A stretch of DNA of 5,157 nucleotides. It comes from Treponema sp. (GTDB lineage Bacteria; Spirochaetota; Spirochaetia; Treponematales; Treponemataceae). The notes under the pieces are model-generated. The model had not been told where the DNA came from, ran no database searches, and was given only the letters and a program-made list of their open reading frames with translations. A program made the translations under genes and the position numbers. The stretch spans positions 1 through 5,157 of the forward strand of contig JAGADS010000178.1 of NCBI GenBank assembly GCA_017613485.1. Direction: 5' to 3'. The first letter of the stretch is position 1, and each line of letters begins with the position of its first letter. Shown here piece after piece: positions 1 through 4,799 of this stretch.

Positions 1-50
1 ACTTTATTTACCTTGAGAATCACCATGTCTAAACAAGCTTCAGTTTTCAT
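1..50 (-). CDS. Possible start of a divergent gene, cut by the left edge
   Basis: On the minus strand an ATG at 50-48 opens a frame that stays open to the window edge and encodes MKTEACLDMVILKVNK. An AGGA sequence lies 7 bases upstream of the ATG, at a good Shine-Dalgarno distance, and a TATGAT hexamer (72-67 on the minus strand) could serve as a -10 box, though no good -35 is seen. Only 16 residues are visible and I do not recognise them, so no function is given. The case rests on the ribosome binding site and the divergent layout. A chance open frame of this length is quite possible. Confidence 0.35.
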   Translation of the reverse strand, partial: MKTEACLDMVILKVNK

Positions 51-56
51 ACTGAA
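39..56. repeat. Short inverted repeat (6-bp arms)
   Basis: TTCAGT and ACTGAA are perfect reverse complements separated by six bases. The repeat covers the start codon of the possible minus-strand gene. It could form a small RNA hairpin or be an operator half-site pair. There is no T-run, so it is not a terminator. Six-base arms can arise by chance. Confidence 0.3.
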
Positions 57-68
57 ATCCTACTATAT

Positions 69-87
69 CATAAAATGAAATTTTATG
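69..87. repeat. AT-rich perfect palindrome upstream of the SulP promoter
   Basis: CATAAAAT and ATTTTATG form perfect 8-bp arms around a 3-base centre (GAA). The site lies between the possible divergent start and the -35 box of the SulP promoter. That is a typical place for a regulator-binding site acting on one or both directions. It has no flanking T-run as expected of a terminator. The symmetry is seen directly; a regulatory role is inferred. Confidence 0.4.
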
Positions 88-109
88 CTAGTGGGGATTT
101 TCTCCCTCG

Positions 110-145: not shown

Positions 146-1849
146 ATGTACAAACCAGAATTATTGAATACGCTCAAATCTTACAGCGGAAAACAGTTTG
201 CAGCAGATCTTGTTGCAGGTATCATCGTGGGTATTGTTGCCCTCCCCCTTTCAATTGCATTTGCCATAGCCAGCGGATGCAGCCCGGAAACAGGTCTTTA
301 TACTGCAATCGTCGCAGGTTTCTGTATTGCGGTATTTGGTGGAACAAGATGTCAGATTGGAGGACCGACAGGTGCCTTTACAGTAATTATCTATGCCATC
401 GTTAATAATCCGGATCTTGGGGTATCAGGTCTTGCAACAGCTACAGTTCTTGCCGGAATCATGCTCATTCTTCTGGGTGTGTTCAAGCTGGGCGGTCTTG
501 TAAAATTTATTCCATATACAATCGTTGTGGGTTTTACGGCAGGAATCGCGGTTACAATTGCAACAGGTCAGATCGGAGACTTTTTTGGAATGCAGCCTTC
601 TTTCCCGATTACTGCCATGGGCAATGAATACACAAAAATGCCGGGAACCTTTGCAGGAAAAATCCTTGTCTATGCAAATTCACTTTCTTCTATAAATATA
701 TATTCAACTCTGATGTCGCTTATATGTCTTGTGATAATCTTCCTGTGGCCTCGCGTTACAAAAAAGATTCCAGGTTCTCTGATAGTCATTGTTCTTGCAA
801 CTATCGTAAACCTTATTGTCTCTCACTTTGCAGGTGACAATCCTTTCTGGCACACGGACATTATCAAGGACCGCTATTCAATTCCTACAGGTCTTCCAAA
901 GCCTGTTATTCCGGGGTTCAGTTTTGATACATTGAAGACAGTTTTTCCGACAGCAGTTTCCATTGCAGTTCTTGCCGCTATTGAATCACTTCTTTCTGCT
1001 GTTGTAGCTGACGGCATGATCGGTACAAAGCATGACTCTAACAACGAGCTTATCGGTCAGGGAATTGCAAACATTGTAAGCCCGCTTTTCGGAGGTCTTC
1101 CTGCAACAGGTGCAATCGCCCGCACTGCAACCAACATCAACAACGGAGGCCGCACTCCTGTAGCCGGTGTCATTCACGCAATTGTACTTCTTCTGATAAT
1201 GTGTCTCTTCGGTAAGTATGTTGAATACATTCCAATGGCAGCTCTTTCGGCAGTTTTGATGAGTGTGGCATGGAACATGGCCGGCATTCCTTCTATCAGA
1301 AAACTTTTAAAGAGTCAGAAATCGGACATTGTAGTTCTTCTGGTTACGTTCCTATTCACAGTGTTTGTTGACTTGACTTATGCAATCGGAATAGGACTCA
1401 TCTTTGCGGCTTTCTTCTTCATCAAGAAAATGATAGATGTCTCTGGAGTACAGGAAAACAACCGCACAATAGTAACTGGTATTACAGGCGACGGTCATAC
1501 AGAGCAGCTTGAAGTTCCCAAGGGAGTTCTCGTTTATGAAATCGAAGGTCCCCTTTTCTTTGCAACCGTCAGGAAATTTGAGCTTGCAGTTGAACGTGCC
1601 GGTACTGAATTCAAGGTTCTTGTCATCCGTATGAGGAACACGATTTATGTTGATGCAGGTGGCATACAGGCTCTTGAACAGTGTAAGGCAGCATGTGACC
1701 GTAAGGGCGTTAAGATTGTCATAAGCGGAATTCATTCTCAGCCATATCTTCTTTTTGAGAAAACAGGAATGGCAGATAAAATCGGACGCGAGAATATTTT
1801 TGACAATATTGATGCAGCCATGGAACGTGCCCGCCAAATTCTCAGTTAG
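146..1849 (+). CDS. SulP (SLC26-type) anion transporter with STAS domain
   Basis: The 567-residue product is an inner-membrane transporter of the SulP family, which moves inorganic or organic anions (sulfate, bicarbonate, dicarboxylates). The substrate cannot be told from sequence alone. The N-terminal stretch up to the first membrane helix (ADLVAGIIVGIVALPLSIAF, residues 19-38) is typical. Also present are the GGPTGAF motif (72-78), the AIESLLSAVVADGM segment with its conserved Glu280 (278-291), the NNELIGQGIAN motif (299-309) and GGLPATGAIARTATN (316-330). About a dozen hydrophobic helices end near residue 427. A cytoplasmic STAS domain covers about 455-565. Its loop reads VDAGG (502-506), without the Ser or Thr phosphorylated in anti-sigma-antagonist relatives. 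Length is normal for the family. The ATG at 146 fits the family's usual N-terminus, but no ribosome binding site lies at normal distance (AAGAGG is about 25 bases away) and the promoter's -10 box ends only 7 bases upstream. No carbonic anhydrase or sulfate-assimilation gene adjoins it. Confidence 0.95.
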   Translation: MYKPELLNTLKSYSGKQFAADLVAGIIVGIVALPLSIAFAIASGCSPETGLYTAIVAGFCIAVFGGTRCQIGGPTGAFTVIIYAIVNNPDLGVSGLATATVLAGIMLILLGVFKLGGLVKFIPYTIVVGFTAGIAVTIATGQIGDFFGMQPSFPITAMGNEYTKMPGTFAGKILVYANSLSSINIYSTLMSLICLVIIFLWPRVTKKIPGSLIVIVLATIVNLIVSHFAGDNPFWHTDIIKDRYSIPTGLPKPVIPGFSFDTLKTVFPTAVSIAVLAAIESLLSAVVADGMIGTKHDSNNELIGQGIANIVSPLFGGLPATGAIARTATNINNGGRTPVAGVIHAIVLLLIMCLFGKYVEYIPMAALSAVLMSVAWNMAGIPSIRKLLKSQKSDIVVLLVTFLFTVFVDLTYAIGIGLIFAAFFFIKKMIDVSGVQENNRTIVTGITGDGHTEQLEVPKGVLVYEIEGPLFFATVRKFELAVERAGTEFKVLVIRMRNTIYVDAGGIQALEQCKAACDRKGVKIVISGIHSQPYLLFEKTGMADKIGRENIFDNIDAAMERARQILS

Positions 1850-1869
1850 CGTTTTTGCATGAATTACAG

Positions 1870-1898
1870 TAGAAAATGAACGGTTTTAGTGTTATAAT
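1870..1898 (+). promoter_or_regulatory. Extended -10 promoter of xylB
   Basis: A perfect TATAAT (1893-1898) is preceded by TGT, giving an extended -10 (TGTTATAAT). A weaker -35 (TAGAAA, 1870-1875, four of six) lies 17 bp upstream. Transcription would start near 1905, leaving a leader of about 27 bases. This makes xylB a transcription unit separate from the SulP gene despite the 82-bp gap. No xylose-repressor palindrome is obvious. Confidence 0.65.
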
Positions 1899-1916
1899 TA
1901 AGTAACACCCAAAAAC

Positions 1917-1921
1917 AGGAG
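1917..1921 (+). promoter_or_regulatory. Ribosome binding site fixing the xylB start at 1932
   Basis: AGGAG lies 10 bases before the ATG at 1932. No comparable site precedes the next in-frame ATG at 1971, where only a weak CAGAG is present. The site therefore supports 1932 as the genuine start, upstream of the in-frame TGA, rather than the start at 1971. Confidence 0.65.
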
Positions 1922-1931
1922 TATTGCTTTT

Positions 1932-3416
1932 ATGAAAACAGTTGCATGAATTGACCTTGGTACCCAGAGTATGAAGGTTGTCATTTATGATTACGAGAAA
2001 AAAGAGATAATCGAAAAGGCCAGCTGTCCGATGGAATTGATTTCGGCAGCAGACGGTACACGCGAGCAGAAGACTGAATGGTTCGACAAGGGACTTGAGG
2101 TCTGCTTTGGAAAACTTTCGGCACAGAACAAGGCTACCATCGAGGCTATCGGTGTTTCCGGTCAGCAACACGGTTTTGTTCCGCTCGACAAGGACGGCAA
2201 GGCATTGTACAACATCAAGCTCTGGTGTGATACCGCCACAACCGAACAGTGCGCCTACATAACAAAACAGGCAGGCGGGGACAAAAAGGTAGTTGAGCTT
2301 CTTGGAAACCTTATGCTCCCGGGCTTTACGGCTCCAAAGATTCTCTGGCTCAAGAACAACAAGCCGGATGCTTTTGCTGCCCTTCATTACGTCATGCTTC
2401 CACACGATTACCTGAACTGGAAGCTTACAGGCGAATATGTAATGGAATACGGAGATGCCTCAGGTACTGCACTTTTTGACTCTGCCAAACGCTGCTGGTC
2501 CAAGACTATCTGCGACATCATAGATCCGAAACTGCTCGGACTTCTTCCAAAGCTGATTGAACCGAGTGCTCCTGCCGGAAAGGTTTCTGCAGAGGCTGCC
2601 GCTGCCTATGGAATTCCTGCAGGTATTCCTGTTTCCGCTGGTGGCGGCGACAACATGATGGGTGCTGTCGGAACCGGTACTGTTGCAGACGGATTCCTTA
2701 CAATGTCCATGGGAACCTCAGGTACACTCTACGGATACAGTGACAAGCCGATTAATGATCCGGAGAACGGTCTCAGCGGATTCTGTTCATCTACAGGCGG
2801 ATGGCTTCCACTTCTCTGTACAATGAACTGTACTGTTGCAACTGAATTCATCCGCGGTCTTTTTGATCTTGACGTTAAGGATTTGGATAAAGAAGCTTCA
2901 AAGGCTCCATGCGGAAGTGAGGGCGTAATCGTTCTTCCATTCTTCAACGGAGAAAGAACCCCTAATCTTCCAAACGGCAGGGCAAGTATCACAGGTCTTA
3001 CATCTGCCAATACAAACCGTGCAAACATTGCCCGTGCATCCCTGGAATCAGCCGTATTCGCCATGCGTGGTGGACTTGATGCATTCCGCAAGCTGGGATT
3101 CAAGCCGCGTGAAATACGCCTGATCGGTGGTGGCTCAAAATCTCCTCTTTGGAGACAGATTGCAGCCGACATCATGAACCTTCCAATCCGTATTCCTGCA
3201 TTGGACGAGGCAGCCGCCCTTGGTGGTGCAGTTCAGGCTTTGTGGTGCCTCAAGAGCATGAGCGGAAAGTGCGACATCGCAGAATTGTGCGCCGAACACA
3301 TCACACTCGACACATCAAAAAGCGCCGACCCGATTCCAGAAAATGTTAAGGCATATAACACGGCTTATGAAGAGTACAACAAAGTCCTTGAAGCTGTAAA
3401 ACCATTGTATGAGTAG
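1932..3416 (+). CDS. xylB: D-xylulokinase (FGGY family) interrupted by TGA at codon 6
   Basis: The product phosphorylates D-xylulose with ATP to xylulose 5-phosphate, feeding xylose into the pentose phosphate pathway. From ATG 1932 it would be 494 residues, close to the family norm (E. coli XylB is 484). Counted from that start, it shows DLGT (8-11, ATP phosphate site), SGQQHG (76-81, sugar site), and the first FGGY signature GFTAPKILWLKNN (131-143). LPHDYLNWKLTGE and DASGTALFD follow, then GGGDN with the catalytic-type Asp240 and MGTSGT (260-265). The second FGGY signature lies at 351-372 and the adenosine-site GGGSK at 399-403. Codon 6 (1947-1949) is TGA where relatives usually have Gly before Ile-Asp. 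If translation began at ATG 1971 (481 residues) the DLGT motif would be lost and the enzyme probably inactive. The rest of the frame is intact, so this is a recent mutation, a sequencing error, or less likely recoding. No xylose isomerase gene lies in the window. Confidence 0.9.
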
Positions 3417-3431
3417 ACACGACAAGGCCTA

Positions 3432-3463
3432 TGTCGGGTTTACAATTTATTGAAAACCCGACA
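3432..3463 (+). repeat. Strong hairpin just after xylB
   Basis: TGTCGGGTTT and AAACCCGACA are perfect 10-base reverse complements around a 12-base loop. The structure begins 15 bases after the xylB stop codon. It is not followed by a T-run, so it is not a classical intrinsic terminator. It could protect the 3' end of the mRNA, or be half of a repeated palindromic element together with the next hairpin. Confidence 0.6.
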
Positions 3464-3472
3464 AACGGCTGA

Positions 3473-3503
3473 GTCAAGGCCTTGAGCGTAAGCGTGCCTT
3501 GAC
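3473..3503 (+). repeat. Second hairpin between xylB and its duplicated tail
   Basis: GTCAAGGC and GCCTTGAC are perfect 8-base arms, and CTT/AAG inside can extend the stem past a 3-base bulge. The left arm shares CAAGGCCT with 3423-3430, just before the first hairpin. No T-run follows. Two stable hairpins spaced 9 bases apart resemble paired REP-type elements, but copies elsewhere in the genome cannot be seen here. Confidence 0.5.
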
Positions 3504-3560
3504 CAGACGTATGAAGAGTACAACAAAGTCCTGGACAAGGTTGCCCCACTCTACGTGTAA
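3504..3560 (+). pseudogene. Remnant: 3' end of a second xylB homologue
   Basis: This stretch encodes QTYEEYNKVLDKVAPLYV followed by TAA. The end of xylB encodes AYEEYNKVLEAVKPLYE followed by TAG. A block of 23 bases is identical between 3366-3388 and 3510-3532. After that the two copies differ in most codons, yet still encode similar residues (Leu, Val, Pro, Leu, Tyr kept in register). This is what two diverged homologous genes look like, not a fresh tandem copy. No start codon with a ribosome binding site precedes it and the rest of the gene is missing. It is best read as the leftover tail of another xylulokinase gene lost by deletion or recombination. The terminator downstream probably belonged to that gene. 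Confidence 0.7.
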
Positions 3561-3595
3561 GCCCCTTTTCCACGAGATTATGACATGAAACCATG

Positions 3596-3628
3596 ACCGC
3601 TTGTCCCGATAGGATGAGCGGTTTTTTT
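3596..3628 (+). terminator. Intrinsic terminator
   Basis: ACCGCT and AGCGGT form the outer stem. The arms continue inward through two G-T wobbles to TCC/GGA, giving about 11 pairs with a 5-base loop (CGATA). A run of seven T follows directly (3622-3628). This is a textbook rho-independent terminator. It probably ends transcription from the xylB promoter, after the duplicated tail. Confidence 0.85.
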
Positions 3629-3666
3629 GTTGGTGGTGTGTGAAGTTTTATGCCTGCCTTGTCACA

Positions 3667-3724
3667 GGGATGTTCAAAAACTTAGATTTGTCATTGGGAT
3701 ATTCAAAAAGCAGGATTTGTCATT
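3667..3724. repeat. 29-bp tandem direct repeat, two copies
   Basis: Two adjacent units (3667-3695 and 3696-3724) match at 24 of 29 bases. Both begin GGGAT and end GATTTGTCATT, with the differences clustered in the middle. The bases before unit 1 (TTGTCACA) look like the end of a third, degraded unit. The last ATT is shared with the palindrome that follows, so repeat and palindrome may be one composite element. The region is non-coding. Confidence 0.7.
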
Positions 3725-4049: not shown

Positions 4050-4799
4050 ATGTTTTGTAGGAATTGTGGCATTCAAGCAGATGAAGACGCTATCTTTTGT
4101 AAGATTTGTGGTGTAAAACTCTCCGAAAGAAATAATAATAAATATTGTTTCAATTGTGGTTCGGCTCTTGACGATGATGCAATTTTTTGCATGTACTGCG
4201 GTACTAAAATCAAAGAAAATGAAGAAAGCACGGAAAATAAAGAAAACTATGATAAAATAAGCGACTCATCTGAAAATTCCAATCAAAATACAAAATTTAT
4301 AGATTATAAAAACGCATTTAGAAATGGGAAACATTTTGTTTATGCAACAGATTCCTCTGAATTACTCTGTCCGAACTGCCATAAAATCGCAGATCCAGAC
4401 GCTACTCTTTGTTACAATTGCAACACAAGTTTTCTTGTTTCTAATAATTCTAGTTCTACAAACGATAACAATAATACAGAGCAAAATGAATATACCATTA
4501 TCGAAAAAGATTTGAAAACATTTGCTGTTATTAAGAATGGTAATCCCAACAATTACTATTGTCCAAACTGTCATCAGCAAGTAAACCCAAGTTCAGATAC
4601 CTGTAGTAACTGCAATACAAATTTCTATAAATACAACACGAACAGCTTAGATGGTCTTTCTCAAAACGATGATATCATTTCATCTGACAATAGAGATCTG
4701 CCTGATGAAGAACCTAGAAATTATGCCCTTCTAGGCGGTGTTTTGGGATTTCTTGCATTTATTTGTTTTTTTATATGGGTACTTAATATACAGAGTTGA
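4050..4799 (+). CDS. Tail-anchored protein with four zinc ribbons
   Basis: The 249-residue product has four zinc-ribbon units, each with exact Cys-x2-Cys-x10-Cys-x2-Cys spacing. The cysteines are 3/6/17/20, 33/36/47/50, 107/110/121/124 and 171/174/185/188. Units 1 and 2 are joined by a 12-residue link. Linkers rich in Asn, Ser, Glu and Lys follow (about 55-100 and 130-168). A single hydrophobic helix at about 225-246 ends three residues before the stop and follows an acidic stretch (DLPDEEPR). There is no N-terminal signal peptide, so the ribbons should face the cytoplasm with the protein anchored by its C-terminus. It fits the broad zinc_ribbon_2/DZR class of bacterial proteins of unknown role; the function here is unknown. 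The start is supported by GGAG at 4035-4038, 11 bases away. Base composition is clearly more AT-rich than xylB, suggesting separate origin. The next gene follows within about 95 bases. Confidence 0.85.
   Translation: MFCRNCGIQADEDAIFCKICGVKLSERNNNKYCFNCGSALDDDAIFCMYCGTKIKENEESTENKENYDKISDSSENSNQNTKFIDYKNAFRNGKHFVYATDSSELLCPNCHKIADPDATLCYNCNTSFLVSNNSSSTNDNNNTEQNEYTIIEKDLKTFAVIKNGNPNNYYCPNCHQQVNPSSDTCSNCNTNFYKYNTNSLDGLSQNDDIISSDNRDLPDEEPRNYALLGGVLGFLAFICFFIWVLNIQS

Follow-up and report, generated by a model that had tools for sequence, protein, structure and literature searches.

The xylulokinase gene (xylB) of a T. bryantii-type Treponema spirochaete carries a TGA at codon 6, where its relatives carry a glycine codon, and sequence comparison makes a very recent nonsense allele the most probable reading (at roughly 60%). 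The window, by which we mean the whole stretch of DNA analysed (5,157 nucleotides), holds a disrupted xylB, because the TGA sits between the start codon and the N-terminal IDLGT motif. The features on which the argument turns are the following.

146 to 1849, forward strand: sulP family anion permease with a STAS domain (TIGR00815, 384.8 bits against a cut-off of 380.45).
1870 to 1898, forward strand: promoter-like site TAGAAA-17-TATAAT, 5′ of xylB (10 of 12 consensus positions).
1917 to 1921, forward strand: AGGAG, the ribosome-binding site for the 1932 start, from the sequence (duplex of -6.6 kcal/mol).
1932 to 3416, forward strand: xylB frame (xylulokinase, FGGY family), broken at codon 6 (TIGR01312; Pfam FGGY_N and FGGY_C).
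1947 to 1949, forward strand: TGA at the site of the relatives' glycine codon (GGN in 79 of 79 readable loci).
1953 to 1979, forward strand: small hairpin, GACCTT/AAGGTT, 3′ of the TGA, kept with GGN in relatives and not specific to the TGA allele.
1971 to 1973, forward strand: ATG of Met14, the next in-frame ATG and the first ATG, GTG or TTG past the TGA (from the codon list).

From 1932 the sequence reads ATG AAA ACA GTT GCA TGA ATT GAC CTT GGT ACC and then remains open until the TAG at 3414-3416. IDLGT is not in one translated frame with the start, the TGA intervening. The 481-residue frame from 1971 (1971-3416) scores 598.9 bits against the XylB model TIGR01312, the cut-off of which is 380.25. 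An earlier note on this DNA had placed the TGA at codon 6 of a xylulokinase gene without other lesions, and its coordinates hold on the window sequence. Its statement that the other 488 codons carry no lesion is right about the open frame and wrong about the count, as 494 codons precede the final stop and 493 of them are not the TGA. It had also seen no further in-frame TGA in the two long genes; indeed, the window has one TGA at a conserved sense position, and neither sulP nor the remainder of xylB has another. The start at 1932, proposed from the ribosome-binding site and the family alignment, agrees with both: the anti-Shine-Dalgarno duplex at AGGAG (1917-1921) is worth -6.6 kcal/mol, vs. 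-2.9 kcal/mol 5′ of the 1971 ATG, and the relatives' loci L001 to L007 all begin MKTVAGIDLGT at the position equivalent to 1932. The promoter-like site at 1870-1898 falls in the stretch that can be aligned to L001, where the alignment begins at 1854. Such sites number 2 in 1700-2000 compared with 0.9 in shuffles, which is weak evidence alone.

The state of codon 6 was read in the best 80 of 577 confirmed relatives from the genome collection. All 79 readable loci have a glycine codon (GGA in 36, GGT in 26, GGC in 14, and GGG in 3), never TGA; L028 is uncounted, its locus beginning inside the gene with the 5′ end absent. (An initial script, which skipped L028 and L071, found GGN in all of the other 78.) This comparison with the xylB of related strains, a check that the earlier note had called for, bears out its remark that the residue before Ile-Asp-Leu-Gly-Thr is usually Gly. 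Glycine is also found in 32 of 32 further loci, some of which belong to genomes already represented. Within the genus of G001, 200 genomes were searched and 185 gave some match, many of these being only distant kinases. The matches listed show no internal stop; 81 of them are at least 60% identical and begin at residue 1 or 2, and hence cover codon 6. A protein search listed 120 relatives, and of the seven sequences read, three are without the N-terminus: P0083 (367 residues), P0072 (458), and P0087 (403) start past the IDLGT segment. P0083 was rejected as a second lesion, since its likely source, a 20,249-base contig of G031, has an N run in xylB and GGA at codon 6. The short N-termini of P0072 and P0087 could be due to contig ends, start miscalls or lesions.

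The closest relative among the best 80 of 577 is L001, the XylB of Treponema sp. Tb.RUG.153, with 98% protein identity over 481 residues. It is like the window in the start, the hairpin and the downstream element, but has GGA at codon 6 where the window has TGA. The first 51 coding bases of the two show one difference, which lies within codon 6, and the other 48 bases are identical; TGA is one base change away from GGA, as the earlier note had it. GGA is present also in L121, a second close genome. The relatives are nevertheless an indirect guide, because the DNA of the window and L001 is only 87.7% identical over 1854-3626.

Judged by its substitutions, the rest of xylB is conserved. The dN/dS between the window and L001 is 0.019, from 479 of the first 480 codons, in which 151 differences are synonymous and 15 nonsynonymous. 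(The L121 rows were dropped from the table as invalid, because an N run shifts the frame.) Six outgroups served to assign the changed codons to branches by majority. The window branch receives 62 synonymous and 7 missense changes plus the TGA, against 64 and 3 on the L001 branch, while 18 and 2 fell to neither; these counts ignore multiple hits, and codon 312 was given to the window on one of the six outgroups. The missense excess on the window branch relative to the L001 branch is nonsignificant (Fisher p 0.33). Had the gene been neutral for more than about 6% of the window branch, a missense count of 7 or lower would have a chance of less than about 5%, an estimate that is built on the branch counts and an assumed transition weight of 2. 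Neutral drift for longer than that is unlikely. The paucity of missense changes and the estimate of the neutral fraction together argue that the lesion is either very recent or absent from the organism.

We infer that the organism itself has this base, that UGA ends translation there and that the use of xylose is impaired. A single base separates the TGA from the codon found in the closest relative, and translation from 1932 would be expected to end once five residues have been joined. A product re-initiated at Met14 would have 481 residues but no IDLGT segment, so that little or no xylulokinase is expected. Phosphorylation of xylulose should suffer from the loss of xylB if the window strain resembles G001 to G004, because each of these genomes has one match that is 94-100% identical, the others being 25-29% identical. 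Leaky reading of UGA, known in some bacteria according to the available text of one study (PMC7918605), could preserve some activity. If the base is real, the strain has been caught just after the loss of an enzyme of xylose use. This would be of modest ecological interest, since several of the relatives were sampled from the rumen, a habitat in which plant fibre serves as food.

The earlier note had named recent loss and sequence error as candidates, and the comparison with relatives fits both. An error from sequencing, from assembly or from a mixture of strains, with glycine as the true codon and an intact gene, is a possibility to be taken seriously, although on the whole we doubt it. It agrees with a lesion of a single base in a gene that is otherwise open and conserved, next to a sulP that is open throughout, and with the presence of the TGA in no other copy read; what counts against it is indirect, namely that the lesion is a base substitution rather than an indel and that neither long gene has a further one. 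If it is an error, the case has value only as a caution in annotation. The finding is in any event an ordinary one: neither loss nor error alters what is known of decoding. It is improbable that a real TGA is read through by a near-cognate tRNA to an extent that keeps the gene useful at lowered expression. The available text of Belinky et al. (2021; PMC7918605) describes UGA as leaky in some bacteria and reports in-frame stops within genes of low dN/dS, and the window resembles those cases in having a single in-frame stop in a conserved gene, the remainder of which has low dN/dS. But the stops in that text had to be common to at least two genomes, whereas the one in the window has been seen once. 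Conserved read-through was rejected because the TGA occurs in 0 of the 79 readable loci and in no match listed from the 200 genomes; a very recent stop, for its part, would leave dN/dS just as low. A real TGA that is usefully read as sense, and selected as a natural low-expression allele of xylB, is a shade less probable again.

Recoding of the TGA, whether by selenocysteine insertion or by a reassigned code (e.g., the glycine code of SR1/Gracilibacteria), is hardly credible, even though the TGA occupies a Gly position and is followed by a hairpin. Selenoprotein genes combine an in-frame UGA with a bacterial SECIS hairpin, and to this extent the window is like them. The hairpin arms, GACCTT at 1953-1958 and AAGGTT at 1974-1979, are where the earlier note had put them, and the fold is better than that of shuffles in two of three stretches (z -2.45 for 1932-2000 and -2.91 for 1947-1990, but -1.28 for the longest, 1947-2030; L001 gives -0.68). 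The hairpin is not specific to a UGA gene, however: both arms are kept in 11 of 68 script-readable loci, every one of them GGN, and they are present in L001 with GGA, so the hairpin belongs to the conserved coding sequence. The site, moreover, is Gly and not Cys in relatives of the window. The earlier note had thought selenocysteine unlikely and had suggested a search of the genome for selA, selB and selC. In relatives, a search yielded no selB over the family cut-off and no tRNA-Sec over the gathering score in eight nearer genomes (completeness of these genomes is not given), while T. vincentii was positive for both. Weaker matches to the selB model occur in all nine genomes; as they are confined to its front part, we take them to be other GTPases. 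The tRNA-Sec negative covers the 150 candidates scored per genome, out of 153-253. Selenocysteine was rejected on the absence of selB and tRNA-Sec over cut-off in these relatives and on the hairpin's lack of specificity for TGA. A TGA at a glycine position is also what the UGA-to-glycine code of BD1-5/SR1 bacteria entails, as given in the available text of PMC4032931. In contrast to such a code, the relatives of the window hold glycine codons at the site and retain RF2: prfB is above cut-off in all eight, 5 of 5 prfB genes read carry the frameshift site CTT TGA C, and the prfB of L123 and of L124 itself terminates in TGA. That frameshift site regulates RF2 only where UGA is a stop recognised by RF2. 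The selB, tRNA-Sec and prfB results all come from relatives' genomes. With RF2 and its frameshift site kept in relatives and no second in-frame TGA in sulP or xylB, a reassigned code was rejected, as the earlier note had anticipated. Just as remote is a functional protein that begins at Met14, with the TGA merely closing a short leader. Past the TGA, Met14 is the first in-frame ATG, GTG or TTG, and a distance of 24 bases is near enough for re-initiation. Yet ribosome binding there is weak (-2.9 vs. -6.6 kcal/mol), and no more than 40 of 79 loci have Met at residue 14, so Met14 is no general alternative start. A protein begun at Met14 has 481 residues and is without IDLGT, within which Asp8 and Thr11 sit in relatives. 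We take these two residues, by motif and position, to be counterparts of D8 and T11 of SePSK, a related sugar kinase whose D8A and T11A mutants are, in the available text of PMC4880283, far less active after substrate addition; the sequence match to the SePSK structure 5htn begins only at residue 154, so the N-terminus lies outside that alignment. The available text of a paper on the FGGY family (PMC3245297) has nothing on the motif. The weak ribosome-binding site, the loss of Asp8 and Thr11, and the occurrence of Met14 in 40 of 79 loci led us to reject a functional start at Met14, and a very recent nonsense allele remains the preferred reading.

The gene order in the window is the sulP-type permease (146-1849), xylB (1932-3416) and a zinc-ribbon frame region (4050-4799). 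The sulP gene is intact and matches Pfam Sulfate_transp and STAS. Window positions 4-92 align with the region 5′ of xylB in L001 (73%) and L121 (75%), and unlike in those two, sulP separates this segment from xylB in the window. The best sulP match (68-79% identical) and xylB are on different contigs in 8 of 8 relatives. The split of 4-92 from xylB by sulP and this separation of contigs suggest a rearrangement. In L001 the gene 5′ of xylB is on the opposite strand and is carB-like by eye, whereas sulP occupies that place in the window. The zinc-ribbon protein has a C-terminal membrane-like stretch by eye, and weak matches only, in 2 of 4 relatives. An Rfam scan of the window gave one chance-level match, to a snoRNA (E 0.17). 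The similarity of the window to L001 and L121 ends at 3626-3628.

A second copy of the 3′ end of xylB is found past the stop (window 3366-3391 and 3510-3560), where 3515-3560 is 84-87% identical, over 45-46 bases, to the gene end of L002-L005 and L007. The arrangement is common to the window, L001 and L121, and the duplication is therefore older than the TGA; it is perhaps a relic of gene-end replacement. The element at window 3420-3520 has a pair of strong hairpins (z -5.3) and is a dispersed repeat. It has matches in 8 of 8 relatives, from one in G001 and one in G031 to at least 40 in G007 (40 of 44 candidates scored), and is REP-like. The element has no Rfam match, and neither the search of plasmids with the repeat nor an exact scan of viral contigs led anywhere. 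Farther on, the intergenic stretch 3659-3716 consists of two head-to-tail copies of 29 bases that are 76% alike.
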